Positions 37,066 to 58,790 of a DNA stretch of 64,000 nucleotides are shown here, piece after piece. The notes beneath the pieces were generated by a model. The model made no database searches, was not told the DNA's origin, and was given only the letters and a program-made list of their open reading frames with translations. Each line of letters begins with the position of its first letter. Within the stretch, counting starts at the first letter, position 1. This DNA comes from Diospyros lotus (Eukaryota; Streptophyta; Magnoliopsida; Ericales; Ebenaceae), in NCBI RefSeq assembly GCF_014633365.1, contig NC_068341.1, forward strand, positions 23,294,339-23,358,338, written 5' to 3'. Position numbers and translations under genes: made by a program.

Positions 37066-38264
37066 AGAATGATGCCAAACCAATATGGGGCTAGGTTCTT
37101 AGAGAATCGAGGGGACTCAGGTGATTATGGCAATATGATGTGTTTGTACGGTTGTCCTATAGGTCCATGGTGGTCAACTGACTAGCCTCTCTTTAATATT
37201 TAATATTATCGAATATGATGAATCAATCAATAATGTGAGTAACAGCGGGCGATATCCCTAATCTTGAAGACGAGGTAGTACAAATATTTATCCATATGAG
37301 GGATTCATAATTGTATATTAGAATCATGTCAAATAGAAACATGTTGACTTACGAATATTGGGCTAAAGCCTTATGCCATAAATGTGTTCGGGAACATACT
37401 AATATGCGATCAATGATGTGATTTGCATAACGTAAAACATGTGGGCTTTTGCCTAGAATTATCAAAAAAAGTATTCCCATAACAACTGTGTAAAGACCCT
37501 TGCATACACATGGTGATATGAGTTTCATATGATCATGCATGGCATTGTATATATGATTATCAAGGGAGGTTTATGATGGGTATTTGTACCCTCGGCCTCT
37601 GAGCGAGGGCACTACTATCACTATGCCGGTGACGTCAGGGCAGGTTAAGCGTGTGTTGCCAAGCTAAGGAGGGTGACATATGGTTGATGAGTATTATGGG
37701 CTTTGATGTTATATATGGTAGTATTGAGCATGTGCATGTGTGAGCCTAAGAGCTATTTGTATTTTATTGATCATGTGCATGTGTAACATTATGATATGAA
37801 ACCTTTCATGGGCATATAATGTAAAGCATAATGAATATATGAAATAACTTGAGAGATGACGTGTGAATGAATGTGGGAAGCCTTATTAATGCTAGTCGTG
37901 GTGATTGATGCCCCATTTACTTCAGATGTGCTTGCTGAGCCTTGTGGCTCACTTTGTTTTAACATAATTCCAGGTTATGGAAGGGGAAGCTTGAGGTCAG
38001 AATCAGGGGTGTCAGATCCTTGTAGATAGCTATGTGTACGGGCCTCTCCCAATAGAAAAGATCTTGAGGGTGTGTTGGAGATAGGGGTGTTGGTTTCATG
38101 TTTTATTATGGTTATCAATATGTTTTAGTATAGTGCTACCCTGAGTATGTATTAATGGTTATTTGAGCTTCCATTGTTGTGAAAGAAGATTGGTATCAGA
38201 ATATTGTGTCTATTGTGTAGGAATAAAAGAATTTATTTGGTATGGAAATTTTTCGATCATTACA
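37066..38264 (+). repeat. 5' LTR (left-truncated) of the outer element
   Basis: It ends TTTTTCGATCATTACA just before a primer site. It matches 56605-57110 closely. Features include the hairpin GAGCCTTGTGGCTC at 37937-37950. The left part of the LTR is missing; the inverted LTR 34926-37065 abuts it. Confidence 0.75.
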
Positions 38265-40765: not shown

Positions 40766-41070
40766 CATATGGCATGTTGGGTAGTGAATCAGGAATTTCT
40801 AGCAATTGGATGATAGTTGGGCTAAGAACTTTGTAGTCAAGGGGTAATGATATGTGGCAAGCTTTGAGTGTATGCCGTGAGGTGGCATAGATTTACTTGG
40901 AATATGTGTTGCGCATTTAAGCTAAGAAGGAAGTGAGTTGTATCCTTCCTCAATTATTTCATCAGTCAAGTATGAGGAAAACTACCTAATTCTGGCAATG
41001 ATAGTATAGGCGAATGCCTTACTTATGTGACAAGATGGTTAAAGAACTAAATATGAGATAGCAAGGGTAG
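40766..41070 (+). other. Internal remnant of the outer element, left of the Athila insertion
   Basis: About 300 bp with no recognisable coding content. Its end GGTAG (41066-41070) is one copy of the duplication flanking the Athila-like element. Confidence 0.55.
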
Positions 41071-43138
41071 TGATTAGTGGTTAATTTTATAAAAATTTTG
41101 TTATAATTATACCCTTCTTTTGATCTTAAAAATAGTTTAAATTAGATATTAATATATATTTTATGGTTATATGCAAGTTTAAATTGAAAAATGAATGAAA
41201 TGAAATTTTAAATAAAATTTAATAATAATAATAATAATATATAAAATTATATATAATACATATACATCATTATATGCATTCATGTAATATATATAATATA
41301 ATATAATATATATATATATATGTGCCATGTGTAATACATATATATAATATATAATTTCTTAATAATATTAAATTATTTTTATTTTTTTAGGCATGAAGAA
41401 TTAAAGCCCATGAAGACTTAAAGTCCATGAAGAATTCAAGTCCATGAAGAAATCAAACCCATGGAGAAATCAAGCCCATGAAGAATTCAAGTCCATGAAG
41501 AAATCAAGCACATGAAAAATTAAAGTCTATGAAGAATTTAAGCCCATGAAGAATTAAGGCCCAATTTGAGCAACCCATGGAAGATATTATTTGGAGAAGG
41601 CCCAAGGATTATTTTTAATCCTAATGAAGATTAAAAATCAATTTATAGAAATCTATTTTTATTTTTTATGTGAGAGCTTTATTAGGTGTGTTTTTTAGCT
41701 AAAATCCACTTAACTATTAGGTGGATATTATAGCTAAAATCCATTTAACTTTATGAATGCTTTATTAGGTATGTATTTTAGCTAAAATCCATTTAATATT
41801 AGGTGTGTATTATAGCTAAAATCCATTTAACTTTAAGTGTGTGAGTGCCCATTAGATATAATTATGTCTAGTTGAATAATTGAAATTGTGTGGTTTGTAT
41901 TGCATCTTGTGGCCTATAAATAGATCACTTGATTGCATTTGTAAGTGTGATTATTATTCTTGAATCAAAGTTTAGTTGTTTCCTTATAATTCTCTCTTTG
42001 AGAATTGTTTTTGTTCTTTCCCCTTTTCTTTAGTATTTTCTCTTGTGATCTTACTTCCTTCCTTTCTTCTTTTAAATTCTTATGTCATTTATTATTACTT
42101 TATTATTCACCGCCTAAATGGCCGGTTAATTTGTGCCTTTAAATTTCTGCAATTTTCATTCTTGTCATTTAATTGTTCACCGCCTAAATGGACGGTTAGT
42201 TTCTTGCCTTTAAATTCTTGCAATTTTAATTCTTGTATTTTAATTATCTACCGCCTAAATGGCCGGTTAGTTTCTTCTATTTTAATTCCTGTCATTTAAA
42301 TTCTGTTATTTAAATTATGTCATTTAAATTGTTGTCAATTAATTTAATAGAGATGAGTAGCTAAATCTAATCTTGGGTTAAGGCAAGGACAGTGTCTAAC
42401 GCCAATGATTCCCAAAGAAAGCTACGCTTTAAATGAGTAACATTGGTTTAAACTTCAATATGAGTGTGTTTTGATTATTGAAAAATCACTAGGTTTGGAT
42501 TGGAGCGTAAGCCTAACTTAGAGCTTTCATGTCACGCATGAGAGTTACTAGAACTGGAAACGCTATCATACCCAAACCCGGATGATTAATTTAGTTGTTT
42601 TGTGTATTAATTGTAATTGAATTTATGGTAGTTTCTTAAATTAGAATCCCGCATATCATGTATGGGGATTGCTTAAACTAGAGCTATCATTATCTTTAAT
42701 TGCATTTAATAACAAATCCTCATATCTGAAATTAAATTAATGTTGCTAATCTTTTATGCTAATATTTGGGAATCAACGGGTTGGCACTGAAATTGTCTTA
42801 ACTCAAGTACTTTCCAATTTCATATTCTCACGTTTAGTATTTATTTCAACTTCTGTCTTGCTTTATTTTCTAGTATTTCTTATCTAAAAAAATCATAAAA
42901 AATCATGTTATCAATCCATCTAAATGCGTGTGCGTGTGTGTGACATTCTTTTTTTTCTTTTGCCATAAATAAATCTCTCAGTGGACGACTTGGATTTATC
43001 CAGAAAGTATAAATTTAAATTTGAACTACAACTGCACTCGTACACTGACGAGTATAAACCTCTCGCCTAAATAAATAAAATATAAAATTTTTATTGTGTT
43101 TTGTTTTGTGTTTTAATTGCAGGGTGAGAGTGCAGTCA
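41071..43138 (+). repeat. 5' LTR of the Athila-like element
   Basis: The LTR is 2,068 bp, from TGATTAGTGGTTAATTTTAT to GAGAGTGCAGTCA. It has an A/T-rich start with TA and AAT microsatellites, a run of ~20-bp repeats of the type CATGAAGAATTCAAGTC (41395-41560), and repeats of TAGCTAAAATCCATTTAA. A TATA box TATAAATAG follows at 41915-41923, then three ~70-bp tandem copies containing CACCGCCTAAATGGCCGGTT (42109-42290) in the presumed transcribed region. Confidence 0.93.
41915..41923 (+). promoter_or_regulatory. TATA box of the Athila-like LTR promoter
   Basis: TATAAATAG in CTATAAATAGATCACTTG is a strong plant TATA box. The same sequence is kept in the 3' LTR at 53721-53729. Transcription would start roughly 30 bp downstream. 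Confidence 0.7.
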
Positions 43139-43142
43139 AATT

Positions 43143-43160
43143 TTGGCGCCGTTGCCGGGG
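43143..43160 (+). other. Primer binding site of the Athila-like element
   Basis: TGGCGCCGTTGCCGGGGA follows the 5' LTR by four bases. This is the tRNA-Asp type primer site common in Athila and Tat/Ogre elements. Confidence 0.88.
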
Positions 43161-43268
43161 AGATTGAGGCAAAAAACAAAAAGGAAAAACAAAATATAAG
43201 AAGAAGCATCTCCTGATAAATTCGGTAACTCTGTTTCTTTTTACTTTATTTTTATTTTTGCATAGTGT

Positions 43269-46200
43269 ATGATACTTAGGTCAGGTAAAACTGTAGAAAA
43301 TCAGTCACTCATGTCTCAACACAATGAAAACATGCCACTTCCACAGAACATGTCTGCACGTGGTAGTGACCACGGTGACCCTGATCCCATTGATCAGGAG
43401 ATGATCAGACCCCTTAGGGAGTATCTTCATCCTCCTAGGCAGACAACCCCCTCATGCATTATTCTTCCCATCAATCAGCATAGGTTTAACTTCAAACCTG
43501 ACACAATCCAATTGTTGCCAACTTTTCATGGCATGGATTCTGAAAATCCATATACTCATATGAAAGAATTTGAGAAAGTATGTAGCACTTGCATGGACCA
43601 TACAGCAAATGAGGATGTCATAAGATTAAAACTCTTTCCATTCTCACTGAAAGATAAGGAAAAAATATGGTTAAGCACTCTCCCACCTAGATCTATAGGA
43701 ACTTGGAGAGAAATGCAAACAACTTTCTTAAAAAAATACTTCCCTGCCAACAGAACTGCTACTCTTCAAAGACAAATCATGAACTTTGCTTGTAAACCAA
43801 ATGAGAATTTTGCGCAAGCGTGGGAAAGGTTTAAAGACCTTCTTCACACTTGTCCGCACCATGCTTTTGAGCAATGGAGAGTGGTCAGTTTCTTTCATGA
43901 TTCACTCACTCCCCAATTGAAAATGCTAGTTTCTACAATGTGCAATGGAGAATTCTATGGGAAGACTCCAGAAGAAGCTTTCCACTTCTTTGACACATTG
44001 GCTGAGAATACAAGGAACTGGGAAGTTGGTCCAACATCTGCTCTTGATTCAAGAGAAAATCCACAACCTAGAGGGAGATACCAACTGAGTGAGAGTGACG
44101 ATTTAAATGCAAGATTAACTGCTTTAACAAAGAAAGTTGAAAACATGCAACCCAAAAAGGTGCAATCTGTTAATCAAGTGGAAGTAAAGTGTGCTGTGTG
44201 TGATACAACAGATCATTCAACTGAAGAATGTCCTACCCTACCTGCTTTCAAGGAGGTATTGTATGGGCAGACTAATAACAATCATTCACATAACTTTGAG
44301 GGGAGACAAAATCAAAATCAGAGTGGAGCCTATTATGGGAATAATCAGAACTACAATTCATACCATCCCAATAATAGAAATCACCCCAATTTTTCTTGGA
44401 GAAATGATTCTGGAAATCATTCTCAACCTCCCTTCCCTACACAACAACATACCTTCCAACAAAATCAAGGTTCTTCATCCAATACTTACCAACCTCCTCA
44501 TAGGAGATCTTTGGAAGATACCTTGCACCAGTTCATCCAAAGTCAAACAGGTATCAATAATCAGGTTGCTCAGCTTGTCAAAAATCAAGACCAAACAAAC
44601 AGAGCCATAGAAGACATTAGGAGCCAGTTGACCAAGATAACACAAACATTGAGTGTGAGAGAACCCGGGAGGTTTCCATCCCAAACTAATCCTAACCCAA
44701 TTAGGCAAACCAACCAGGTAGAAGCTTCAAATAGTGAAACCAACACTCATGAACAAGTGCAAGCAGTGACTGCCTTAAGAAGTGGAAGAATAATTGAGAA
44801 ACCAACTGATCCTAGGATAAACCAACATGTTGATGAAGAAAAAGAACCAAAAGATCATGAATCCACCGTGAAAAAAAATGAAAAAAATGAGAAAAATGAG
44901 AAAAATGAAAAACAAAAAGAAGATGAGAAAGAAATTCAATACAGGCCCAAACCACCTTTTCCACAAAGGTTGAATCATTTGAAAAAAGAGCAACAAAATG
45001 CAGATATATATGAAGTGTTTAAGCAAGTGAGAATCAACATCCCGCTGTTGGATGCAATCAAACAAACACCTTCATATGCAAAGTTTTTGAAAGATCTGTG
45101 CACTGTCAAAAGGAAAACAAATGTGCATGAAAAGGCATTCTTGACTGAACAAGTCAGCGCCATTCTCCAATTGAAAACTCCTCCCAAATACAAAGATCCA
45201 GGCTGTCCAACCATTACATGCATCATAGGAAGTCAAAAGGTTGATCGGGCACTCTTGGATTTAGGAGCTAGTGTCAATTTGTTGCCATACAGTGTGTATC
45301 AACAGTTGGGATTAGGTGAGCTTAAACCCACTAGAGTGACCCTTCAGCTGGCTGATCGATCAGTCAAAGTTCCACGAGGAATTGTGGAGGATGTTCTGGT
45401 ACAAATCGATAAGTTCTACTTTCCAGTGGACTTCATCGTTTTGGAGACCCAGCTGCATCAGGGGCCTCAACCTCCTGTGCCAGTCATCTTAGGTCGACCA
45501 TTCCTTGCCACATCAAATGCCATCATCAACTGTAGGAATGGTGTGTTAAAGCTATCTTTTGGGAACATGACTGTAGAAATGAATATCTTTAGGGTAGCCA
45601 AACATCAGGACACTGAGAGTGAAGTGGAGGAGGTAGACTTGATCCAAACACTGACCAATGACTGTTTTGAAGAGTTCATGAGAAGACCCAAAGAAGGAAA
45701 TCAAGATCTCGAAGAAATAAAAGAAGTGGAAGTCATAAGCAAAGAAAGTGAGAAGCCTACATGGATGCCTGGTTTAGAGCCATTAAGGAACTTGGACAGT
45801 AAGCTCATGGCTCCTGATAGCCATCAGTCCACGCCTGAGAGAAAGCCATTGCCCAGTGATTTGAAATATGTCTTTCTAGGAGAAGGGGAAGCATTCCCAG
45901 TGGTGATCTCTTCAAGTTTGACACCTCAGCAAGAGCAACAACTGATAGAAGTTCTAAAAGCACACAGGAAGTCATTAGGATGGACCATTTCAGATTTGCA
46001 AGGTATTAGCCCTTTGATCTGTACTCATAAGATATTCTTGGAAGAAGGAGCAAAACCAGTTAGGCAAATGCAAAGGAGATTAAATCCCAACATGAAAGAA
46101 GTTGTCAGAAAAGAAGTGCTTAAGCTATTGGATGCTGAAATAATTTACCCAATCTCTGATTCTAAGTGGGTAAGTCCAACACAGGTAGTACCCAAAAAGT

Positions 46201-46625
46201 CTGGAGTCACTGTTGTAAAAAATGAGAACAATGAACTGATTTCCACGCGCATCCAGACAGGATGGCGTATGTGCATTGATTACAGAAAGCTCAATTCTGT
46301 GACAAGGAAAGATCATTTTCCTTTGCCTTTCTTGGATCAAGTTCTGGAGAGAATAGCAGGCCAAGCCTACTATTGTTTCTTAGATGGCTACTCAGGGTAC
46401 AATCAGATAGAAATTGCACTAGAAGATCAAGAGAAGACAACTTTCACATGTCCATTTGGGACATTTGCATACAGGCGCATGCCATTTGGGTTATGCAATG
46501 CTCCAGCCACCTTTCAAAGGTGTATGATGAGCATTTTCAGTGAAATGGTTGAGCAGATTGTTGAAGTATTTATGGATGACTTTTCTGTTTATGGAAGTAA
46601 CTTGAGGCCTGTTTGGAGAATCTGA
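43269..46625 (+). CDS. gag-pol: Athila-like gag-protease-RT polyprotein, first part
   Basis: The 1,118-codon frame starts [12 protein letters not shown]. Gag capsid sequence covers about residues 75-260 ([39 protein letters not shown]). A perfect CX2CX4HX4C knuckle, [14 protein letters not shown], stands at residue 308. The retropepsin motif is [13 protein letters not shown] at residue 661, with Leu after the Asp as in Athila. RT begins near residue 930, with MCIDYRKLN and [14 protein letters not shown], and the active site FMDDF at 1101-1105 is intact. The frame ends early because one base, probably a T, is missing near 46602; pol continues in the next frame. One base is the only defect seen, so a sequencing error is possible. 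Confidence 0.93.
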
Positions 46626-48757
46626 AAAAGGTTTTAGCAAGATGTGAGGAAACAAATCTGATACTCAATTGGGAAAAATGTCACTTCATGGTGAAACAAG
46701 GCATAGTCTTGGGGCACATCGTTTCATCTAGGGGGATGGAGGTAGACAGGTCAAAAATTGAAACAATTCAAAAACTCCCCATCCCTAGGAATGTGAAAGA
46801 CATCAGAAGTTTTTTGGGACATGCAGGGTTTTATAGGAGATTCATTGCTTCCTTTAGCACCATAACAAGACCCTTGTGCCATTTGTTGTCTCAAGATGTT
46901 CCGTTTGAATGGAGTCCTGCCTGTCAAAATGCTTTTGATAAATTGAAAGATGCACTCATTTCAGCACCTATCATTCAGTCCCCTGATTGGTCCCTCCCGT
47001 TTGAACTTATGTGCGATGCTAGTGATTATGCGGTAAGAGCTGTGTTAGGGCAGAGGAAGGATAAGAAACCTCATGTGATATATTATGCTAGCAAAACTCT
47101 TAATGAGGCACAAAAGAATTACACCACTACAGAGAAAGAGTTACTAGCAGTTGTCTTTGCCCTGGACAAGTTTCGATCTTACCTCGTAGGGTCACTAGTG
47201 ATCATTTTTACTGATCACGCTGCTCTGAAGTATTTGTTCACAAAGCAAGATGCAAAACCCCGTCTGCTCCGATGGATCTTACTCCTGCAAGAGTTCAACA
47301 TTGAAATCAGAGACAAGAAGGGAGTAGAAAATGTGGTGGCTGACCATTTGTCAAGGATTCCAAGTCAAGATCTCACACAATTTGATGAACCAATTCATGA
47401 CAATTTCCCTGATGAGCAACTGTTTAAAGTGAATGTTATTCGTGCATCATCTGTTGTCCCTTGGTATGCCGACATTGCGAACTACCTGGCAACTGGTCTG
47501 ATCCCAGACCATTGGAGTAAGCAAGATAGGCATAAATTCTTCAGAAAAGTCAGAACATTCTTTTGGGATGAGCCCTACCTCTTCAAGTATTGTCCTGACC
47601 AAATCATCCGTAGATGCATACCCGATCATGAGCAACAAAGTGTCATCAATTTCAGTCATACTCTTGCATGTGGAGGCCATTTTTTTGTCAAGAAAACAGT
47701 TGCAAAAATTTTTCAGAGTGGATTTTATTGGCCGAAACTGTTCAAGGATGTGTACAAGTTCTGTTCAAATTGTGATCGATGTCAAAGGTTAGGAAGTCTG
47801 TCAAGGAGAAACATGATGCCATTACATCCGATCCAAGTGTTAGAAGTTTTTGACTGTTGGGGTATGGATTTTATGGGCCCATTTGTCAATTCATTTGGTC
47901 ATGAATACATCTTACTTGCTGTTGACTATGTGTCCAAATGGGTAGAAGCAATCCCGGCCAGAACAAATGACCATAGGACTGTCGTGAAATTTTTGAAAGA
48001 AAACATATTCAGTCGATTTGGGATGCCACGAGCAATCATCAGTGATGGGGGTTCCCATTTTTGTAATAAAGTTGTGGCAGGATTAATGAAGAAATATGGT
48101 GTACTGCATAAGGTTGCAACACCATACCATCCCCAAACCAATGGTCAAGCCGAGCTAGCCAATAGGGAGATTAAGCGCATATTGGAAAAGACTGTTGCTG
48201 CTAATCGTAAGGATTGGTCCTTAAGACTAGTAGACGCTCTTTGGGCATACAGAACAGCTTACAAAACAATTTTGGGAATGTCTCCCTATAGGCTAGTATA
48301 CGGTAAATCTTGTCATCTGCCGGTGGAAATTGAGCATAAAGCATATTGGGCAATTCATAAGATCAACAAGAGTCTAACTGAAGCAGGCTTATCCAGGAAG
48401 CTCCAATTGAATGAACTTGAGGAAATTCGGAATGAAGCATTTGAAAATGCACGATTGGCCAAGGTTCGCATGAAAGAGTTACATGATCGGCACATCATTC
48501 GAAAAAGCTTTCAGGTAGGGCAACGGGTACTCTTGTATGATTCTCGATTGCATCTATTCCCAGGAAAATTGAAGTCTCGATGGGTCGGCCCCTTTGTAAT
48601 CAAGTCCATCTCAGGATATGGGGCATTTGAGATAGAAAATCTGGAGTCAGGACAGCTTCTAACAGTCAATGGTCATAGGTTGAAACCATACCAGGGTAGT
48701 GTTGAGGAGAATGAAGGAGTTGTGGATTTAGATGATCCATCATCATCTGATGAGTAG
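46604..48757 (+). CDS. pol: Athila-like RT end, RNase H and integrase
   Basis: This continues pol after the one-base shift, with [16 protein letters not shown] and [10 protein letters not shown]. RNase H acidic residues are in [18 protein letters not shown] and [10 protein letters not shown]. The integrase zinc-binding part reads [14 protein letters not shown] and [11 protein letters not shown]. The core has all three acidic residues: [18 protein letters not shown] and [13 protein letters not shown]. The GPY/F-type end reads [17 protein letters not shown]. The stop is TAG at 48755. Everything needed for reverse transcription and integration is present, apart from the frameshift upstream. Confidence 0.93.
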
Positions 48758-49378
48758 GGAAAGTTTCCTATCGTCTGGGAATCTGACGTTAAAAGACCAC
48801 CTTTCCATTTAGGTTAAATGGATGTTTATAGATCTGAAAAAAAAAAATAAAAAAAAAATAATAAAATTAAATAAAAAAAAGAAAAAAATAAAATAAAATA
48901 ATAAAGAATTATATATATAAGTTGTTCATTTTCTGCATTACTTAATTAACTTTGATTCAAATAGTGTTTCTCTGTGTGCAGTCTAAATAAATTTTTTTTT
49001 TTTGCATACGAGTTCATGCATTGAAGACCACCAGGTATGCCTATCTTCTATCATTTTATTGTCGATTGAGGACAATACGCAATTTAAGTTGGGGGGTAAG
49101 GTGTACTTGATTTTATTGGTGTTTGAAACTGATCTATTGTGCAAATAATTTTGTTAGACTCGATAATATTGTCTTGTGTGGTATGTATGATTTTATTGGG
49201 CCCCTAAAACAAAACATTTATTAACAAAAAAAAAAAAATCAAAAAAAAAAAAATAATAATAATAAGAATAAGAATAAAAAAAAAATTAAATTAAAAAAAT
49301 AATAAAATAATAATAATAAAAAAAAAAATTTTGAATTGAGAGAGACAGAATTGACGCTGGTGGTAGCTATCTTTTGTT
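48758..49378 (+). other. Spacer after pol, with hairpin and A-rich tracts
   Basis: Just after pol, GGGAATCTGACGTTAAAAGACC is followed by the hairpin CCATTTAGGTTAAATGG (quoted in part: GGGAATCTGACGTTAAAAG). A related segment follows the cysteine-rich ORF at 50155. A-rich tracts lie at 48837-48905 and 49219-49335. A polypurine tract copy is at 49083-49097. Confidence 0.6.
49083..49097 (+). other. Internal polypurine-tract copy 1
   Basis: TTTAAGTTGGGGGGT, preceded by GATTGAGGACAATACGCAA, is identical over 15 bases to the true tract at 52862-52876. The TTGAGGACAAT...TTTAAGTTGGGGGG phrase normally marks the end of the coding region in Athila/Tat elements. Confidence 0.8.
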
Positions 49379-49538
49379 GGGCAGTGCAATCACACTGCCC
49401 TATAAAGGATAAGGCACACTGCCAAATGTTGAAAAATGAGGCACCAAGCGTTGAAAAAGAGACGCCAAGCATAACCCTGTAATTATGGCATGCCTCGAGC
49501 CGAGTGTAAAATAGTGATGGTCATTGCTCTATAAGAGA
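49379..49538 (+). promoter_or_regulatory. Candidate internal promoter upstream of the two extra ORFs
   Basis: A perfect inverted repeat, GGGCAGTG (49379-49386) and CACTGCCC (49393-49400), directly abuts TATAAAGG (49401-49408). A second TATA-like box, TATAAGAG, follows at 49531-49538 in GCTCTATAAGAGACTCC. Both lie 145-285 bp before the ATG at 49684, as expected for a promoter serving the extra genes. A splice donor CAG|GTACTC (49610) and acceptor TTTTTTCTTAG (about 49660) may mark a short leader intron. Function is inferred from position only. Confidence 0.45.
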
Positions 49539-49683
49539 CTCCATATCTGTATAAGGCAAGCCACCCTTCTTGAGCTCAGTCTTCTCTCTTTTGTGTTATT
49601 CTCTGATCAGGTACTCTCATCCCTTTTGTAAAGTTTATAGTTCTTTACTTTTTTTTCTTAGTATAGTTAAAAAAAAAAAAAAA

Positions 49684-50124
49684 ATGGATCTTTATCTCTC
49701 AAAAATTCACAAGTACTATCCATCTCTCCCGCAGAATGATTTGAAAAAAATTTATGTTGCTAGGTGTGAAAGACTTAGGTTGTTGATGCTTAATAACATC
49801 CCTGAAGATATTCGTTGGCTGATCGAAGCAAAAGTTCGATTAGCTGGTGAAACTTCACCTAGTTTTAAGCATTTTCCAGGCTTAGGGAAGAGTAGTTTTG
49901 CGAAGAAAAGAAGAGCGAAAAGAGTGAATGGTTGTTACAAATGTGCTCGATGGACCTGTAACACACGATGCAAATCTGTGGGGTTTACGTCCATAAATCG
50001 AGAAGATAAAATTAGTTTCATAAAGGATGGACTGAGTAAGGAGTCTCTGGATGATATCCGATTGACTCTTGAGACGCATCCGTGTGGAATAGTGCAAAGA
50101 GAACTTCTTGCTTTATGGACCTAG
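49684..50124 (+). CDS. Basic cysteine-rich zinc-finger-like protein (146 aa) of the retrotransposon
   Basis: The ATG at 49684 follows a run of 16 A with only a few bases before it; the frame is also open upstream but without another ATG. The protein starts MDLYLSKIHKYY. It has a helix-rich first half, a basic patch KKRRAKR at residues 74-80, and directly after it a CX2CX4CX3C cluster (Cys 84, 87, 92, 96 in CYKCARWTCNTRC). The tail SFIKDGLSKESLDDIR is mixed in charge. A basic patch followed by a Cys cluster is the layout of small nucleic-acid-binding or silencing-suppressor proteins of plant RNA viruses such as carlaviruses. That resemblance is my inference from layout, not a homology search. 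It has no stops or frameshifts. It lies in the env position of Athila elements but has no signal peptide or membrane segment. Confidence 0.75.
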   Translation: MDLYLSKIHKYYPSLPQNDLKKIYVARCERLRLLMLNNIPEDIRWLIEAKVRLAGETSPSFKHFPGLGKSSFAKKRRAKRVNGCYKCARWTCNTRCKSVGFTSINREDKISFIKDGLSKESLDDIRLTLETHPCGIVQRELLALWT

Positions 50125-50396
50125 TTCAGAAGTGACCACCAACGCTATAGTCTTGGGAATCTGACTAAAAACGACCCTGTTTGCCAATCTATAAGAAAAT
50201 TGGATGGGAAGCTTATCCCCACTTCATAGAAAGTGTTTAAGCCATTTCTGGACGTAAAACCAGAGGAAGATGTGAGCCACAATCACAACTACTTATACAT
50301 ACGCAAGATTTTTGTTTGTATTTATTTCTTGTTGAATTGTTGTATAGCTACTTTTGATCTCCAAACTTCTTTTCAGGACATACAAAAGAAACAAAC
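50125..50396 (+). promoter_or_regulatory. Leader between the two extra ORFs, with a splice acceptor
   Basis: It starts with a repeat of the post-pol segment (GTCTTGGGAATCTGAC, then CCAAT...ATTGG hairpin at 50186-50205). Before the LOG ATG is a strong 3' splice site, ACTTCTTTTCAG|GACATAC (50375), preceded by T-rich sequence. This suggests the LOG ORF is translated from a spliced transcript. Possible donors are GAT|GTGAGC (about 50270) or CAG|GTACTC (49610). Confidence 0.4.
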
Positions 50397-51056
50397 ATGG
50401 AAGGGCAGTTCGTTCGTCAAATTAAAACCATATGTGTACTTTGTGGCTCTCAACTTGGGAGTGATATTTGTTACGCACTTGCAGCGAACGAACTTGGTAA
50501 AAAATTAGGAGAGAAAAAAATTAATTTGGTATATGGAGGGGGAAGTCGTGGATTGAATGGTTATGTTTCACAAGCTGTACATCTTGGAAATTCATCTGTG
50601 GTAGGTATAATGCCAATCCCTTTAGCTGAACCACATATTTCCGGGATTACACGCGGTCAACTTATAGAAACGACTTCTATGTCTGAGCGCATGGCTTGTA
50701 AGATTTATCAGTCAGATGCCTTCATTGCTTTACCAGGAGGTTTTGGAACACTTGAAGAAATCTTTTGTATAATCTCCTGGGCCAGGAGTAATCTCCATAC
50801 CAAACCCATTGGACTTTTAAATGTTAACCATTTTTTCGATGGGTTACTCTCTTTTCTTGATCAGGCTGTGGACCAACAGTTCATTTCTCGTTCAGCAAGA
50901 AAGATTCTCATTTCTGCATCCACCATTGATAAGCTGTTAGAGAAATTACATGCTTATGTTCCACAGTACGATCCTCATGAGCCTCGGATAGACTGGTCTA
51001 AGGCAATTAGTAACAAGCGCCCAAGGGGTCTGATTAATTTAGATTTATCACTGTGA
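50397..51056 (+). CDS. LOG-like: LOG-type cytokinin riboside 5'-monophosphate phosphoribohydrolase in a retrotransposon
   Basis: This 219-residue protein is full length for a plant LOG. It has the nucleotide-binding start ICVLCGSQLG, YGGGSRGLNGYVSQAVH (residues 46-62), and the family signature PGGFGTLEE (113-121). The catalytic Arg (Arg98 in SMSERMA) and Glu (Glu121) of the family are present, although the usual Lys after that Arg is Met. The C-terminal half (WARSNLHTKPIGLLNVNHFF, LSFLDQAVDQQFIS, YVPQYDPHEPRIDW) follows plant LOGs throughout. LOG enzymes release free, active cytokinin bases from their ribotides in the cytosol. Host LOG genes have several introns; this one has none, so capture from an mRNA is likely. 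Many residues differ from host LOGs yet the frame is intact, suggesting long maintenance in the element. Confidence 0.92.
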   Translation: MEGQFVRQIKTICVLCGSQLGSDICYALAANELGKKLGEKKINLVYGGGSRGLNGYVSQAVHLGNSSVVGIMPIPLAEPHISGITRGQLIETTSMSERMACKIYQSDAFIALPGGFGTLEEIFCIISWARSNLHTKPIGLLNVNHFFDGLLSFLDQAVDQQFISRSARKILISASTIDKLLEKLHAYVPQYDPHEPRIDWSKAISNKRPRGLINLDLSL

Positions 51057-51075
51057 GAAATGCTCTTTATTAAGA

Positions 51076-51273
51076 TGGCTGAGTAAGGAGTACTTTTTGT
51101 ACTCTTGAGACGCATCTAGTTATTGTACAACTTGCAGGATTTTTTTGGTTGTGTTCTTGAAAAAAAAAAAAACAAAAAAAAAAACAAAAAAAACAAAACT
51201 GTGGAATGTTGTTAGCAAAGTCTTTGATAAGATGGCTGAGTAAGGAGTACTTTTTGTACTCTTGAGACGCATT
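51076..51273 (+). repeat. Two copies of a hairpin repeat derived from the cysteine-rich ORF
   Basis: AGATGGCTGAGTAAGGAGTA occurs at 51076 and again at 51231. Each copy continues with a perfect hairpin GAGTAC-TTTTT-GTACTC and then CTCTTGAGACGCAT. The end of the cysteine-rich ORF (50026-50082) reads GGATGGACTGAGTAAGGAGT ... ACTCTTGAGACGCATC. The two repeats therefore look like copies of that coding segment with the middle removed. Confidence 0.7.
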
Positions 51274-51435
51274 TTACTTATCTTATGACTTGCATGAAAT
51301 TTTTATTTTGGTGTGAAAATATAAATATATATCTATATGGTGTGCTCATTTGTTGTTTAAGTTTTAGCAGTTCACAACAAATCTATGGACTTGTGGAGTT
51401 ACAGGTATTCTTAACAACCCTAATTTATTACTGCA

Positions 51436-51451
51436 ATTCAAGTTGGGGGGT
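51436..51451 (+). other. Internal polypurine-tract copy 2
   Basis: ATTCAAGTTGGGGGGT differs by one base (C for T) from the other two tract copies. It stands 380 bp after the LOG stop. Confidence 0.7.
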
Positions 51452-52861
51452 GTAAGGTTTAGTTATGAATTATTTGGTTCATATTTAACTGTGAGTTTGC
51501 TATTGCTAGTTTGTAGTCTTATGTGAATTGATTATCTTTATCTGCTCTTATTAAAAAAAAAAAATTGTGTTTTAAATAACGCTATTCCTAAAGTTTTGAA
51601 GTTATGCACTGATAGCCGGTTAAGTTTGCAATACGAAACATGAATGCATTGATTTCTCATTTGAAAACGTTTATGCATGAGAATAAGTAATTTACATTCA
51701 TCAGGGATTCAAAATTTAGAAATTGGTTATCGGTCATAAAGTCAAAGGTAATAGTAATTAGCTGATTAGTACACTGTATGATCCCTCAACAGAAGTGGAG
51801 ACTATTACCCAAGCAAGTGTTTGAGCCTAATAACCGTTAATTCTGAGTGAAATAACACTTACTCTAAATATGCTCTCTTGTTTATCTTATCTTTTCAATG
51901 GCTTCAAAATATCAATTCGCTTTGAATGTCTAGTATGATAGCGGATGAATTTGACTGGTTTCAAACTATGAATTAGATGACTGAGAAGCATGATAGGGGG
52001 ATCAATTTCTTTCATTTTGAGTCTATTTTTTTTCTTTAAATCAACCTCTTGTTAGCCCATTTGAGCCATTTGTAGTACAACTTCTTTCGTTACCCTTGTT
52101 TAACCCATAACCATATGAATTTTATCCAACCTGGTGTGATTTTGGGAATTAGTCTGTTTATCTATTTTCATATTTAAAAAGAAAAAGAAAAAAAAAGAAA
52201 AAAAAAAGAAAAAAAAAAAGAAAAAAAATGGGGCAAATTCTCTTAGTTATTCAGCACAACTGTTTCAAAATGAATGCTAAAAAAAAAAAAAAAAAAAATC
52301 CCGACACACCCTTTGCACACTCTACCTTTTCTTTGACAACCCGTATTAACCTTATAGCCCCATTACAACCTAGTCTGGTCCTTTTTTATGCTATAAATCA
52401 TGTGATCTCAGAATTCGAGTTTGGAGTAGGGAATCATGTTTAAATTCAGAAGTTACTCATCTAGAGCATTATTCCAATCATGAAGCTATGTCAATTTCCT
52501 TATTCTTTCATGAAAATACGTTCCTTGTATTTGGGATGGCACCGAGTTTTGAACTTGTTCTGCATTTACTCTTATAACGGTGCACCCCCTTGTGTGTACA
52601 CTTGAGGAATCCTTTTTATTGGAGAGAAAATCCATAGTAAGATTTGAAGTCAAAACTTCGAGGGAGTAAGTCTCTGTGTTGGTTATCCTAATTTCCATTC
52701 CTGAGATTGTATGACCTTTAACCAAAAATCTGATTTAGAATGCTAAATTATTTATTTAATTTTATGCATTTCGGTTTCGAATTTGAAATTTTTACATTCA
52801 TACAGTTATTGTGAATAAAGTTTGGCAGGTGTATAATCTGATTGCTAAGGGACTAGCAATG

Positions 52862-52876
52862 TTTAAGTTGGGGGGT
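52862..52876 (+). other. Polypurine tract next to the 3' LTR
   Basis: TTTAAGTTGGGGGGT is separated by one A from the 3' LTR start at 52878. This is the functional position for plus-strand priming. Confidence 0.85.
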
Positions 52877-52877
52877 A

Positions 52878-54944
52878 TGATTAGTGGTTAATTTTATAAA
52901 AATTTTGTTATAATTATACCCTTCTTTTGATCTTAAAAATAGTTTAAATTAGATATTAATATATATTTTATGGTTATATGCAAGTTTAAATTGAAAAATG
53001 AATGAAATGAAATTTTAAATAAAATTTAATAATAATAATAATAATAATAATATATAAAATTATATATAATACATATACATCATTATATACATTCATGTAA
53101 TATATATAATATAATATAATATATATATGTGCCATGTGTAATACATATATATAATATATAATTTATTAATAATATTAAATTATTTTATTTTTTTAGGCAT
53201 GAAGAATTAAAGCCCATGAAGACTTAAAGTCCATGAAGAATTCAAGTCCATGAAGAAATCAAACCCATGGAGAAATCAAGCCCATGAAGAATTCAAGTCC
53301 ATGAAGAAATCAAGCACATGAAAAATTAAAGTCCATGAAGAATTTAAGCCCATGAAGAATTAAGGCCCAATTTGAGCAACCCATGGAAGATATTATTTGG
53401 AGAAGGCCCAAGGATTATTTTTAATCCTAATGAAGATTAAAAATCAATTTATAGAAATCTATTTTTATTTTTTATGTGAGAGCTTTATTAGGTGTGTTTT
53501 TTAGCTAAAATCCACTTAACTATTAGGTGGATATTATAGCTAAAATCCATTTAACTTTATGAATGCTTTATTAGGTATGTATTTTAGCTAAAATCCATTT
53601 AATATTAGGTGTGTATTATAGCTAAAATCCATTTAACTTTAAGTGTGTGAGTGCCCATTAGATATAATTATGTCTAGTTGAATAATTGAAATTGTGTGGT
53701 TTGTATTGCATCTTGTGGCCTATAAATAGATCACTTGATTGCATTTGTAAGTGTGATTATTATTCTTGAATCAAAGTTTAGTTGTTTCCTTATAATTCTC
53801 TCTTTGAGAATTGTTTTTGTTCTTTCCCATTTTCTTTAGTATTTTCTCTTGTGATCTTACTTCCTTCCTTTCTTCTTTTAAATTCTTATGTCATTTATTA
53901 TTACTTTATTATTCACCGCCTAAATGGCCGGTTAATTTGTGCCTTTAAATTTCTGCAATTTTCATTCTTGTCATTTAATTGTTCACCGCCTAAATGGACG
54001 GTTAGTTTCTTGCCTTTAAATTCTTGCAATTTTAATTCTTGTATTTTAATTATCTACCGCCTAAATGGCCGGTTAGTTTCTTCTATTTTAATTCCTGTCA
54101 TTTAAATTCTGTTATTTAAATTATGTCATTTAAATTGTTGTCAATTAATTTAATAGAGATGAGTAGCTAAATCTAATCTTGGGTTAAGGCAAGGACAGTG
54201 TCTAACGCCAATGATTCCCAAAGAAAGCTACGCTTTAAATGAGTAACATTGGTTTAAACTTCAATATGAGTGTGTTTTGATTATTGAAAAATCACTAGGT
54301 TTGGATTGGAGCGTAAGCCTAACTTAGAGCTTTCATGTCACGCATGAGAGTTACTAGAACTGGAAACGCTATCATACCCAAACCCGGATGATTAATTTAG
54401 TTGTTTTGTGTATTAATTGTAATTGAATTTATGGTAGTTTCTTAAATTAGAATCCCGCATATCATGTATGGGGATTGCTTAAACTAGAGCTATCTTTATC
54501 TTTAATTGCATTTAATAACAAATCCTCATATCTGAAATTAAATTAATGTTGCTAATCTTTTATGCTAATATTTGGGAATCAACGGGTTGGCACTGAAATT
54601 GTCTTAACTCAAGTACTTTCCAATTTCATATTCTCACGTTTAGTATTTATTTCAACTTCTGTCTTGCTTTATTTTCTAGTATTTGTTATCTAAAAAAATC
54701 ATAAAAAATCATGTTATCAATCCATCTAAATGCGTGTGCGTGTGTGTGACATTCTTTTTTTTCTTTTGCCATAAATAAATCTCTCAGTGGACGACCTGGA
54801 CTTATCCAGAAAGTATAAATTTAAATTTGAACTACAACTGCACTCGTACACTGACGAGTATAAACCTCTCGCCTAAATAAATAAAATATAAAATTTTTAT
54901 TGTGTTTTGTTTTGTGTTTTAATTGCAGGGTGAGAGTGCAGTCA
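52878..54944 (+). repeat. 3' LTR of the Athila-like element
   Basis: This 2,067-bp copy of 41071-43138 differs by about eight substitutions and by microsatellite lengths near the A/T-rich start, as judged by eye. Single changes include TCTATG against TCCATG and GACTTGGATTT against GACCTGGACTT. The end GTGCAGTCA is followed by the GGTAG duplication. Confidence 0.93.
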
Positions 54945-55296
54945 GGTAGGTGGAGTTTACTCAAGGACTATATCAATGTTATGTTACCGGGAGCATGCCA
55001 ATGAAATGACTGATGCATTAAGTGGGGAATATGCCTACTAATATGACCGAGTTAATGGCCTGTAAATGGCATTTGATAGAGGTTCTTAGCCTATTGATGA
55101 TGATGGTAGTATCTATCAACTTGAGGAAAAAGCCAATGGCTATAATTTGTTCTCACATAATTATTTGAAATAAGGTAATGCAGTATGTTTTTTCTCAATT
55201 ATTTGTTCAGTTAAGTGCTAATTTTGAAGATAAAATTTTGAGATTTAGAATATATGACAAATTTTGAGGACGAAATTTATGGTGGGGGCGGGAGAA
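54945..55296 (+). other. Internal 3' end of the outer Tekay/Del-like element
   Basis: It starts with the GGTAG duplication. It ends in TTTGAGGACGAAATTTATGG and then GGTGGGGGCGGGAG, the typical end of Tekay/Del internal sequence: a GAGGACGAAATTT phrase followed by a polypurine tract (55281-55294). No open frame of pol remains. Confidence 0.75.
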
Positions 55297-57312
55297 TGTA
55301 ATATCCAAGAATTTCTAAAAGGACTCAAGTGTAATTTATCTTAGGCTATAAGTTCATTTTTTAGATAAATTGGGGTTATATAATTTTCTACAATTATCAG
55401 TACCGAATAGATTGTAGGGAGTGCCCTGGAGCCTAGATGTCTAAGAAAAATGATATGGTATTGACGAGCGTCTCGAGTCAGGATTTATAATATTAAAAGA
55501 AATCGAAATATAAACAGTTTTCGGTACACCTGTGTTTCAGGATGAAAAATCGAATTATCGTAAGGGACCTCCAGAAAGTCAATGGAACCCTGATGGGACT
55601 CTGATTTTTCGTAAAGATCAACTCTGAGGTGATTTTGGGATGAAACAAAGGTCCTGTGAGGGCTCAAGGATGAAATCGACCTTATTGAGTAACCTTAGAT
55701 TATTAATTTTGGGTTAATAGTTTAATCCAAATAAATTTATATTCAAGGGTGTAATTGCAAAGTAGAATCATTCAAGTGAGATTAAGGATCTAATTTAGGG
55801 ATTTATATATATTTAATTTTCATAATTTTAAGTATATAATATAAAGATATAATATATATGTGTGTATATTTGTGGGCCGAAAACTATGGGTGGAAACCAG
55901 GGGGTCAATCCAATGGGCCAAAACTTGGTGCCCAAGTCAAATTGCCTATATATATGAGAAGATTTGAGAAGCCACGTGTCTAGCTTTTTCAATTCAAAAT
56001 GCAATTACTTTGTAATTTAGAATGATTAGCTTAGGGATATGGGAATGGCGTGGCTGCCGAGGCATGAAATGCCGATAAATAGGAAAGGAGAAATTGTGGG
56101 GAATTAAGGGAGAAGAAGGCATCACACACAGAGGAAAAAAAGAGGAGAATGAGGAATTCAGCCAGCAGCGGAGGAAGAAGAAAAATAGGAGAAAAGTAAG
56201 AAAAAATAATGAGATTTTGGAGTTTATTGGCATTTAGAATATTCAGGTAAGTGGGTAAAGCTAAATCATGTGTTTTGCGTAATTAGATCTGATTATTATG
56301 ATTCTTAATTTTATTATCTTCCTATCAAATATTTTACTTCGCAGCACGAAGGCAGAAAATGCAAGATTTAGTTGTCTCAAGGCAAGCTTCCAACCCTCTT
56401 TTATGTTCTTTAATCCCTACGCAAGTTTGCATTGTTTTTCATAATTTATTCCCTCCCTTACCATGATTCGGTTCCACGCATTAATTATGTAAATACACGT
56501 GGTAACCATTTTATAATATGTGAGTTGTTGGGCGTAAACTAAATATGTGACTCCTGGTGATGTTTATTTCTAACCAGCACGTGACTTTGTATTGCCCCTA
56601 CTTCTTTGGGAATGATGCCAAACCGATGTTGGGCTAGGTTCTTAGAGAATCGGGGGGACTCGGGTGGTTATGGCAATACTAATGTGTCCGCACGGTTGTC
56701 CCATAGGGCTATGGCGGTCAACTGACCAGCCTCCCTTTAATATTTAATATTATCGAATATTCTAGATCAGTCAATAATGTGAGTAACAACAGGGTGATAT
56801 CCCTAATCTTGAAAGTGAGGTAGTACAAATATTTACCCACATGAGGCATCCATAATTGTATGTTAAAATCATGTCAAATAGAAATGTGTTGACTTACGAA
56901 TATTGGGCTAAAGCCTTATGCCATAAATTTGTTTGGGAACGTACCAATATGGGATCAATGATGTGATTTGCATAATGTGGGACATGTGGGCTTTTGCCTA
57001 AAACTATCAGAATAACTATTCTCATAACAACTTTGTAAAGACCCTTGCATACGCATGGTGATGTGAGTTGCATATGGTCATGCATGGCATTGTATATATG
57101 ATTATCAAGTGAGGTTTATGATGGGTATTTGTCCCCTCGGCCTCTAAGCAAGGGCATTGCTATCGGTGTGCCGGTGACGTCTGGGCAGGTTAAGCGTTTG
57201 CTGCCATGCCAAAGAGGGTGACGTATGGTCGATGAGTATTATGGGTTTTGATGTTATATATGGTAGTATTGAGCATGTGCATGTGGTAGTATTGTGTAGG
57301 AATAAAAGAATT
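55297..57312 (+). repeat. 3' LTR of the outer element (right end rearranged)
   Basis: It starts TGTAATATCCAAGAATTTCT right after the polypurine tract. From 56605 it follows the 5' LTR until GTGCATGTG (about 57283), skips roughly 450 bp, and resumes with GTATTGTGTAGGAATAAAAG. There the sequence folds back into an inverted LTR copy. A block of 55985-56250 is purine-rich (GGAAGAAGAAAAATAGG). Confidence 0.75.
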
Positions 57313-57347
57313 TATACAATTAAATTATTTTATTCCTACACAATACT
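57288..57347 (+). repeat. Near-perfect palindrome at the LTR inversion point
   Basis: The arms 57288-57314 and 57321-57347 are complementary at 26 of 27 positions (outer 20: AGTATTGTGTAGGAATAAAA), with the 6-base loop TACAAT. The palindrome marks the switch from a plus-strand to a minus-strand LTR copy. Confidence 0.85.
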
Positions 57348-58790
57348 CTAATACCAATCTCTTTTCACAACAACGGAAGCGCAAATAATTGTTAATACAT
57401 ACCTCATGGAAACACTATACTAAAACATATCGATAACTGTAATTAAACTTGAAACCAACACCCCTATCTCCAATACACCCTTAGGATCTTTTCGGTTTGG
57501 GGAGCCCTGTACACATTGATATCGACAAGGATTTGATACCACTAAACTTAACCTCGAACTTTCCTTTAACAAATCTTGAATGATGCAAGCAAATATGAGT
57601 CACAAGGCTCAGCAAGCATATCTGAAATAAATGGGGCATCATTGGAAATTATATCCCGATAGAATCACACGACTAGCCATAACGAGGATTTCCACATTCA
57701 TTCCCACATCATGTCCCAAGTTATTACATATATTCGTTATACTTTACGTCACATGCCCATGTCAGGTTCCACAGGCTTATATAACACATATTCATGATTA
57801 TGGGAATTGCTAATCAGGCCCAGTTCATACTGTGTGTCGTGCACCATCATGCACATGCTTAATAAACTACAAATAGCCCTTATGCTCAATATGCTCAACA
57901 ATATCATATGCAATATCATAATCCGTAATAGTCATTAACCATACGTCACCCTCTTTGGCATGGAAGCACACGCCTATCCTGCTCGGACGTCACCAGTACA
58001 GCGATAGTAGTGCCCTCGCTCAAAGGCCAAGGGGATAATTACCCATCACAATCCTCACTTGATAAACATACATACAATGCCACGCATGGTCATATGTAAC
58101 TCACACCACCATGTGTATGCAATGGTCTTTACACAATTGTTATGGGGATATTTATTTGAATAGTTCAAGGGCAAAAATCCACATGTTCCTTGTTATGTAA
58201 AATTGCATCATTGATCCCATATTGGTACATTTCTGAACACATTTATGGCCTAAGGCATTAGCCTCATATTCGTAAGTCAACAAGTTGATACTTGACAGAA
58301 TTCTAACATACAATTATGGATCCCTTGTGTGGGTAAATATTTGTACTACCTCACCTTCAAGATTAGGGATATCGCTTGTTGTTACTCACATTATTGACTG
58401 ATCCAGCATATTCGATAATATTAAATATTAAAGGGAGGCTGGTCAGTTGACTGCCACAATCAAATCTAGTTTCCCTGACTGTCTAAGAACCTAACCCACA
58501 TCGGTTTGGCATCATTCTCAAAGAAGTAGGGGAAATACAAAGCCCCGTGGTGATTAGAAATAAATATCACCAGGAGTCACATATTTAGTTTAATCCCACC
58601 GTTCACAGACTCAACAACAACTCAGATATTATAAAAGGGTTACCACGCGTATTTACATAATTAATGCGTGGAACCGAATCATGGTAAGGGAGGGAATAAA
58701 TTATGAAAAACAATGGAGACTTGTGTAAAGATTATAGAGCATAAGAAGAGGGTAAGGAGCTTGCCTTTATTTGGCCGATTTTTGCCTTTC
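57328..58790 (-). repeat. Inverted partial LTR copy
   Basis: Read on the minus strand it follows the LTR of the outer element from about 56390 to its 3' part, including the ~450 bp missing from the left arm (compare 37740-38200). The hairpin GAGTCACAAGGCTC is at 57597-57610. It lacks both LTR ends. Confidence 0.78.

Follow-up and report, generated by a model that had tools for sequence, protein, structure and literature searches.

The window analysed here, i.e., the whole stretch of 64,000 nucleotides on contig C4 of the 630 Mb Diospyros lotus genome, contains a 13.9 kb LTR element (41071-54944) with a gene of the LONELY GUY (LOG) family and a second, virus-type gene between pol and the 3' LTR. 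The following features were assigned:

41066..41070 (left) and 54945..54949 (right), no strand: target-site duplication GGTAG, from sequence reading
41071..43138, + strand: 5' LTR, from repeat pairs and LTR-LTR comparison
43144..43161, + strand: primer-binding site, starting with TGGCGCC, from the sequence
43269..46625, + strand: gag, protease and the first portion of the reverse transcriptase (RT); the frame stops within RT (ORF list, domain search)
46613..48757, + strand: remaining pol in a different frame, with RNase H and integrase (ORF list, domain search)
49684..50124, + strand: NABP-like ORF of the carlavirus nucleic-acid-binding family, 146 aa, shorter than its relatives of 181-182 aa
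50397..51056, + strand: LOG-like ORF, 219 aa, with a basic C-terminus followed by INLDLSL (LxLxL)
52865..52877, + strand: polypurine tract adjoining the 3' LTR, from the sequence
52878..54944, + strand: 3' LTR, from repeat pairs and LTR-LTR comparison

Structure of the LOG-bearing element

An earlier note on this DNA had described the element as young and the LOG gene as part of the GGTAG-flanked unit, and both statements hold: the two LTRs were found with GGTAG on each side, and of the 2,060 sites compared between them 8 are mismatched, with gaps in a further 17 columns. With the plant substitution rates that we assume, the insertion would be at most a few hundred thousand years old. We take the primer-binding site to be of the tRNA-Asp type, and the name Athila-like, given on the layout of the element, is likewise our presumption. 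Pfam models recognised gag, protease, RT, RNase H and integrase, and pol is broken into two overlapping frames that are split inside RT (43269-46625 and 46613-48757), so that this copy of the element, young as it is, is not intact. A chromodomain was looked for in the element with Pfam (E <= 0.001) and none was found. The RNase H matches in this Pfam search were to RT_RNaseH models; an additional RNase H is a mark of the Tat lineage (PMC6317226). An Rfam scan gave three matches in the element, all sub-threshold, and a search of the window for tRNA genes found none.

A LOG protein with an altered substrate pocket

The LOG ORF is open throughout its 219 codons. Its product matched PF03641 in Pfam (E 5.8e-33) and TIGR00730 in NCBIfam (E 7.6e-43), and the closest solved structure by sequence was that of At2g37210 (2a33, E 8.4e-53). 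The AlphaFold model had a pLDDT of 88.4, with the last nine residues disordered, and its top Foldseek matches were 2a33, 1ydh and 5zbk, which represent Arabidopsis LOG3, LOG8 and bacterial type-I LOGs; it also matched the fold of the nucleosidase PpnN (6gfl). The protein has the LOG/Rossmann fold and the PGGxGTxxE motif of type-I LOGs. The open frame, both family databases and the structure matches thus agree with the description of a full-length LOG without a stop in a retroelement, and a residue alignment confirmed that Arg98 and Glu121 are kept. Against the cytokinin-LOG equivalog NF058542 the protein scored 90 bits, far under the 300-bit cut-off.

To describe the pocket we used the residue numbers of the Corynebacterium glutamicum LOG (CgLOG), in which catalysis is proposed to depend on Arg99 and Glu122, the adenine is held by Met96, Lys100 and Glu121, and the inferred prenyl site comprises Met96, His97 and Lys100 together with Glu125 and Trp129 from the partner subunit (PMC4979012). 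We compared 119 element-type LOGs, defined as the database matches of the window LOG minus P0105 and P0107, whose motifs marked them as hosts, with 121 host LOGs that were obtained from one LOG7-like query and are mostly LOG7-like, so that the host clade is thinly sampled. All six positions examined are invariant in the hosts (121/121 each). The catalytic residues are also retained in the element-type proteins (Arg99 in 115/119 and Glu122 in 116/119), as is Trp129 (117/119). In contrast, Lys100 is found in 10/119, replaced by Ile (40), Met (35) or Leu (32); Glu125 in 9/119, replaced mainly by Gln (53), His (44) or Cys (5); and His97 in 53/119. The window LOG has Met, Cys and Ser at the positions of Lys100, Glu125 and His97, respectively, and the Xanthoceras sequences retain Lys100. 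The description of the enzyme as cytokinin-activating is therefore weakened by the pocket, where two residues kept in every sampled host are replaced in most element-type proteins. Mycobacterial LOG likewise deviates at the prenyl site (PMC4979012), so an altered pocket need not mean that cytokinin activity is lost; nevertheless, judging from these residues, activation of cytokinin by the element LOG appears doubtful.

A basic, leucine-rich C-terminal tail

The element-type LOGs also differ from those of the hosts at the C-terminus. An LxLxL motif lies within the last 14 residues of 95/119 element-type proteins, against 0/121 host proteins and 1.7 in shuffled sequences, mostly at the extreme end and behind a basic stretch (e.g., KKRKLDLTLRL); a basic motif within the last 22 residues is found in 107/119 element-type proteins and in 1/121 hosts. 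The 24 of 119 that lack an exact LxLxL include models that are cut short or fused as well as proteins with a single residue replaced, and the Xanthoceras tails have the basic stretch but end short of the leucines. In the D. lotus loci, 71/73 LOG ORFs have the LxLxL end, a count in which some loci overlap and the copies are not all independent. LxLxL is the consensus of the EAR motif (PMC9956375), which the INLDLSL end of the window LOG fits, and pathogen effectors are reported to exploit TOPLESS (PMC7446885, PMC8126959), although so short a motif may serve some other purpose. Compared with the plant LOG phosphoribohydrolases AtLOG3 (2a33) and AtLOG8 (1ydh), the element LOG has the same fold, length, catalytic Arg and Glu and PGGxGTxxE motif; it differs in the replaced pocket Lys and Glu, in the gain of the basic stretch and LxLxL, and in being encoded by a single open frame in a retroelement.

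An NABP-like gene accompanies LOG

A second gene, absent from the list of the earlier note, lies between pol and LOG (49684-50124). Its 146-aa product scored 36.3 bits against PF05515 (cut-off 23) and 21.0 bits against PF01623, just above the cut-off of 20.9. The database held 512 relatives at E <= 0.001; the 120 that were listed include proteins of Orobanche, Striga, Populus, Rhamnella and Xanthoceras, and of 30 aligned members 26 matched PF05515 and 25 matched PF01623 (E <= 0.001). These relatives share a basic stretch of the KKRRAKR type, a cluster of Cys residues and a strongly conserved NREDKIxFIKDGLSKESLD block. As in the carlavirus nucleic-acid-binding proteins (PF05515, PF01623), the retroelement NABP combines a basic stretch with a Cys cluster and scores above the Pfam cut-offs, but it sits on a retroelement and its conserved C-terminal region is longer. 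Among the viral relatives of NABP there are suppressors of silencing, and one protein of this kind, from a chrysanthemum carlavirus, acts as a transcription factor and stimulates cell proliferation. The structure model of NABP was poor (pLDDT 56.5).

The window copy stops early, at 146 residues (stop at 50122-50124). In 39 D. lotus loci (38 plus the window), the NABP ORF has 181 residues in 32, 177 residues in one, and is short or missing in six. Several relatives of 145-151 aa also end near the stop of the window copy, while the sequence that follows is conserved in the longer ones; this shared early end may reflect read-through or recurrent decay.

LOG copies in the D. lotus genome

Three genome searches returned 926, 1,115 and 1,058 LOG candidates, of which the best 150 were scored in each, so the scored loci are best matches and biased to intact copies. 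Among the 39 best-scoring loci that were examined, the LOG frame is full in 37 and broken in two. To avoid selecting by LOG, we used integrase DNA as a query and scored the best 40 of 871 candidates. A LOG sequence was present ~2.4-2.6 kb downstream of the integrase in all 40, which are the nearest relatives of the window element and no random sample of Athila-like elements. These comprise the window, 32 copies that correspond to entries of the LOG lists, of which two have a stop within the part that matched, and seven copies that were fetched, in which LOG is open over its full length in three and broken or cut in four (L047, L049, L051 and L052). Among the 39 loci with examined frames, four subfamilies were distinguished: A (window, L001), B (L002-L008), C (L009-L022, L024, L025) and D (L023, L026-L038).

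Several LOG copies are regularly spaced, namely those at C12:24636185 and 24642975 (~6.8 kb), at C11:16479440, 16486702 and 16494151 (7.3-7.4 kb) and at C7:5468327, 5481711 and 5493461 (11.8-13.4 kb). This spacing suggests tandem elements with shared LTRs.

Element-type LOGs form one clade across eudicots

A tree was built from 34 element-type LOGs picked from the 119, 15 plant host LOGs (from D. lotus, LOG7 included, Populus, Reevesia, Pterospermum, Actinidia, Nyssa, Arabidopsis and others) and one bacterial LOG. The element-type proteins formed one clade apart from the sampled hosts (bootstrap 97, SH-aLRT 94), which was recovered in 95% of 200 bootstrap trees, and a quick tree of 118 rows concurred (94). 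Members of the clade come from Diospyros, Rehmannia, Populus, Malvales and Xanthoceras, i.e., from both rosids and asterids.

We infer that the members beyond Diospyros also reside in elements, because the clusters in a genome are numerous (20 rows for Reevesia) and have up to 327 members (P0063), because the Xanthoceras models P0006 and P0007 fuse LOG to a stretch that resembles the gag-protease linker of the window, and because of a published report on Citrus and Populus and five LOG/NABP pairs. The latter are exact matches between equal-sized contigs of at least 1,500 bases in other plants, the two members of each pair also sharing a source, against 0.48 expected (2,000 jitters, largest 4). 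When contigs of all sizes were considered, 9 pairs were observed against 3.4 expected, with a largest jitter of 11, so that the linkage of NABP and LOG in other plants is suggestive only. No relative was found when viral contigs were scanned with NABP P0134 and LOG P0023 for element DNA of other plants.

In D. lotus, Populus nigra and P. trichocarpa, three element-type LOGs (P0002, P0039 and P0041) bear the name of an ordinary gene, 'LOGL10'. Annotators should be aware that the proteins so named in these three species group with the element-type clade, away from host LOGs.

LOG and NABP are under purifying selection between subfamilies

In all six pairs of subfamily representatives the dN/dS of LOG was 0.23-0.32 (Fisher p 7e-4 to 8e-8), and it reached up to 0.35 across all pairs with dS > 0.08. 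For NABP the values between representatives were 0.05-0.22 when L001 was left out; its predicted frame starts elsewhere, and values of 0.52-1.07 arise if it is included. Thus, both genes are under purifying selection between subfamilies. Within type C the copies differ by at most seven codons with a mixed outcome, and the changes are too few to show selection. The RNase H-integrase region gave a dN/dS of 0.24 in the sole computable pair, window-L041; for the diverged type-B pol, segment identities were taken because the synonymous sites were saturated.

None of the three sequence-level outcomes that the earlier note named as counter-evidence was seen. In concordance with that note, LOG is found at the same place in other copies (40/40 of the relatives ascertained by integrase), the window protein lies outside the sampled host LOGs, LOG7 of D. 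lotus included, and a dN/dS well below 1 between copies points to selection on the element LOG. A one-off capture of a host LOG was ruled out by copy number, by the clade and by dN/dS.

Probable exchange of the NABP-LOG module and its persistence on elements without pol

The identity between type B and the window differs along the element: 75.3% in pol, 93.8% in NABP, 94.6% in the non-coding spacer between NABP and LOG, 91.5% in LOG and 88.3% in the non-coding DNA after LOG. Type D shows the opposite pattern, with 99.0% in pol, 99.6% in NABP and 95.0% in LOG. Since non-coding DNA is more alike than pol, recombination of the 3' module is the best explanation, and NABP and LOG are best explained as a 3' cassette exchanged between diverged pol lineages.

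Type C LOGs occupy two backbones. In 11 of 25 loci (16 typed by sequence and 9 by the 219-codon open frame), a gag remnant takes the place of pol; another 11 have pol, and neither was found in three. A search of the genome for the gag remnant gave 454 candidates, of which the best 40 were scored (95-100% identity). In 25 of these 40 a listed LOG, with a stop in two cases, lies ~2.2 kb downstream, which leaves no room for pol. Five of the other 15 loci were fetched, and LOG was present in all five, stop-free over the aligned part in four. Three of these five are of type C and two of type B (98.6-99.1%), so that the same backbone carries both LOG types. Elements that have lost pol and most of gag still keep LOG. 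The pol-less backbone also retains an open gag-derived ORF between the primer-binding site and NABP in L039, L040 and L055 (243 aa at L055:691).

A possible effector role for the element LOG

Our preferred reading, to which we give a little less than an even chance, is that the captured LOG was neofunctionalised into a nuclear, effector-like protein that acts beside a virus-type NABP and would be kept by selection on transposing elements. A host LOG would have been captured once, early in eudicots, and would then have been neofunctionalised, and selection on the transposing elements of the Athila-like lineage would retain NABP and LOG as a 3' cassette. The basic stretch suggests that the element LOG is probably nuclear. 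It is predicted to still bind, and perhaps cleave, a ribonucleoside monophosphate, because it retains the phosphate loop as well as both catalytic residues, Arg and Glu, and to no longer prefer the usual cytokinin nucleotides, because the pocket Lys, Glu and often His are replaced. The EAR-like end is predicted from its motif to engage TOPLESS-type corepressors, and NABP, if it works like the viral proteins it resembles, would be a nucleic-acid binder that may dampen silencing. LOG and NABP could jointly form an effector pair that tilts host transcription or silencing to the benefit of the element. A bolder form of this reading, which we regard as possible and no more than tentative, is that of a pathogen-like effector pair in which a nuclear, TOPLESS-recruiting nucleotide sensor or hydrolase derived from LOG would act with NABP, as a recombining cassette carried across eudicots and also by pol-less elements, and would reshape host silencing, immunity or meristem state.

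Four other explanations were weighed against the effector reading. A canonical LOG would free cytokinin from its ribotides and, in cells expressing the element, stimulate division or meristem activity, and it would account for the retained LOG fold, catalytic Arg and Glu, PGGxGTxxE motif and phosphate loop as well as for purifying selection. We consider it unlikely, since Lys100 and Glu125 are replaced in 109/119 and 110/119 element-type LOGs and in 0/121 hosts, alanine mutants of the CgLOG AMP site are nearly inactive, S19A excepted (PMC4979012), and the nuclear-type basic stretch and LxLxL end are left unexplained.

The chance is smaller still that LOG serves nucleotide housekeeping, as a nuclear or particle-associated nucleotide hydrolase or a nucleic-acid-binding accessory used in replication, with the tail making another contact. 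The fold shared with PpnN (6gfl), the basic tail and the joint retention of LOG and NABP by pol-less elements, whose replication proteins are borrowed, fit such a role; the LxLxL end does not find an explanation in it, and the many Ty3/gypsy lineages that, to our knowledge, do without such a gene count against it.

We find it improbable that the protein is a dominant-negative decoy that dimerises with the LOG subunits of the host, in which the active site is at the dimer interface, and thereby lowers cytokinin activation. The partner subunit does supply Glu125 and Trp129 in CgLOG (PMC4979012), and here Glu125 is changed and Trp129 kept, but the interface is far diverged from that of the hosts (~50% identity), the tail is unexplained and a decoy would have no need to keep catalytic residues. 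Finally, a passenger captured once and carried without use to the element, with which the broken LOG copies (2/39, and 4/7 of those fetched) would be compatible, is equally improbable and already disfavoured by the dN/dS of 0.23-0.35 between subfamilies, by the survival of LOG on pol-less backbones and by the deep clade with its common new tail.

Relation to known elements and proteins

The earlier note knew of no described retrotransposon carrying LOG; this must be corrected, as a YgdH/LONELY GUY-family domain has been reported in Gypsy consensuses of two Citrus species, C. sinensis and C. clementina, and also of Populus trichocarpa when one filter was switched off (PMC9289625), a finding that agrees with Steinbauerova et al. 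(2011), cited there. Those elements likewise carry a LOG-family domain in plant Ty3/gypsy elements, and Populus sequences belong to the clade described here. In its accessible text, PMC9289625 describes the domain alone; the NABP partner, the pocket change, the tail, the selection test, the pol-less carriers and the cassette exchange are features from this analysis. Thus, the presence of a LOG domain in plant retroelements was known before, while the NABP partner, the EAR-like tail, the pocket change and the cassette exchange appear to be new, as no report of them was found in the open-access literature searched.

The element resembles Athila/OTA elements with extra 3' ORFs in its non-chromovirus Ty3/gypsy layout and in having additional sense ORFs in the interval that separates pol from the 3' LTR, but the ORFs of those elements are described, in the accessible parts of PMC7264820 and PMC6317226, as env-like or of unknown function. 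A captured enzyme domain is likewise kept in the Gypsy lineage of Phalaenopsis that carries AlkB; the latter is an RNA demethylase active in vitro (PMC9289625), whereas the element LOG is known here from its sequence. The effectors HaRxL21 and Jsi1 may share with it the use of LxLxL to reach TOPLESS; they are secreted by pathogens and their interaction was shown (PMC7446885, PMC8126959), whereas the element LOG has the motif alone.

Most extra ORFs of plant retrotransposons are without an assigned function. Here, a well-studied hormone enzyme appears to have been captured, selected and altered in its pocket, to have gained a tail of the corepressor type, and to have a virus-type protein as its partner. 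The altered pocket and the repressor-like tail hint at manipulation of the host by the element, and the LOG/NABP case makes the effect of retrotransposon extra genes on their hosts testable by simple protein assays.

Other repeats in the window

The polypurine tract motif AAGTTGGGGGGT occurs three times in the window, at ~49084 (after pol), ~51440 (after LOG) and ~52866 (before the 3' LTR), so that the NABP-LOG cassette is bracketed by two PPT-like tracts. A hairpin with common flanks (GAGTAAGGAGT...ACTCTTGAGACGCA) is also present three times, within the NABP ORF (50026-50082) and 3' of LOG (51076-51116 and 51231-51271). In six aligned rows, 90% and 93% of the positions are invariant in the two non-coding copies, against 44% in the DNA between them, and the folding z-scores of the three hairpins are only -1.6, -2.6 and -1.8. 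The repeated hairpin is possibly a site for RNA export, packaging or protein binding. Outside the element, other direct and inverted repeats of ~170-300 nt, 79-89% alike, flank it at 37168-38145 and 56796-58456 and are probably older elements.
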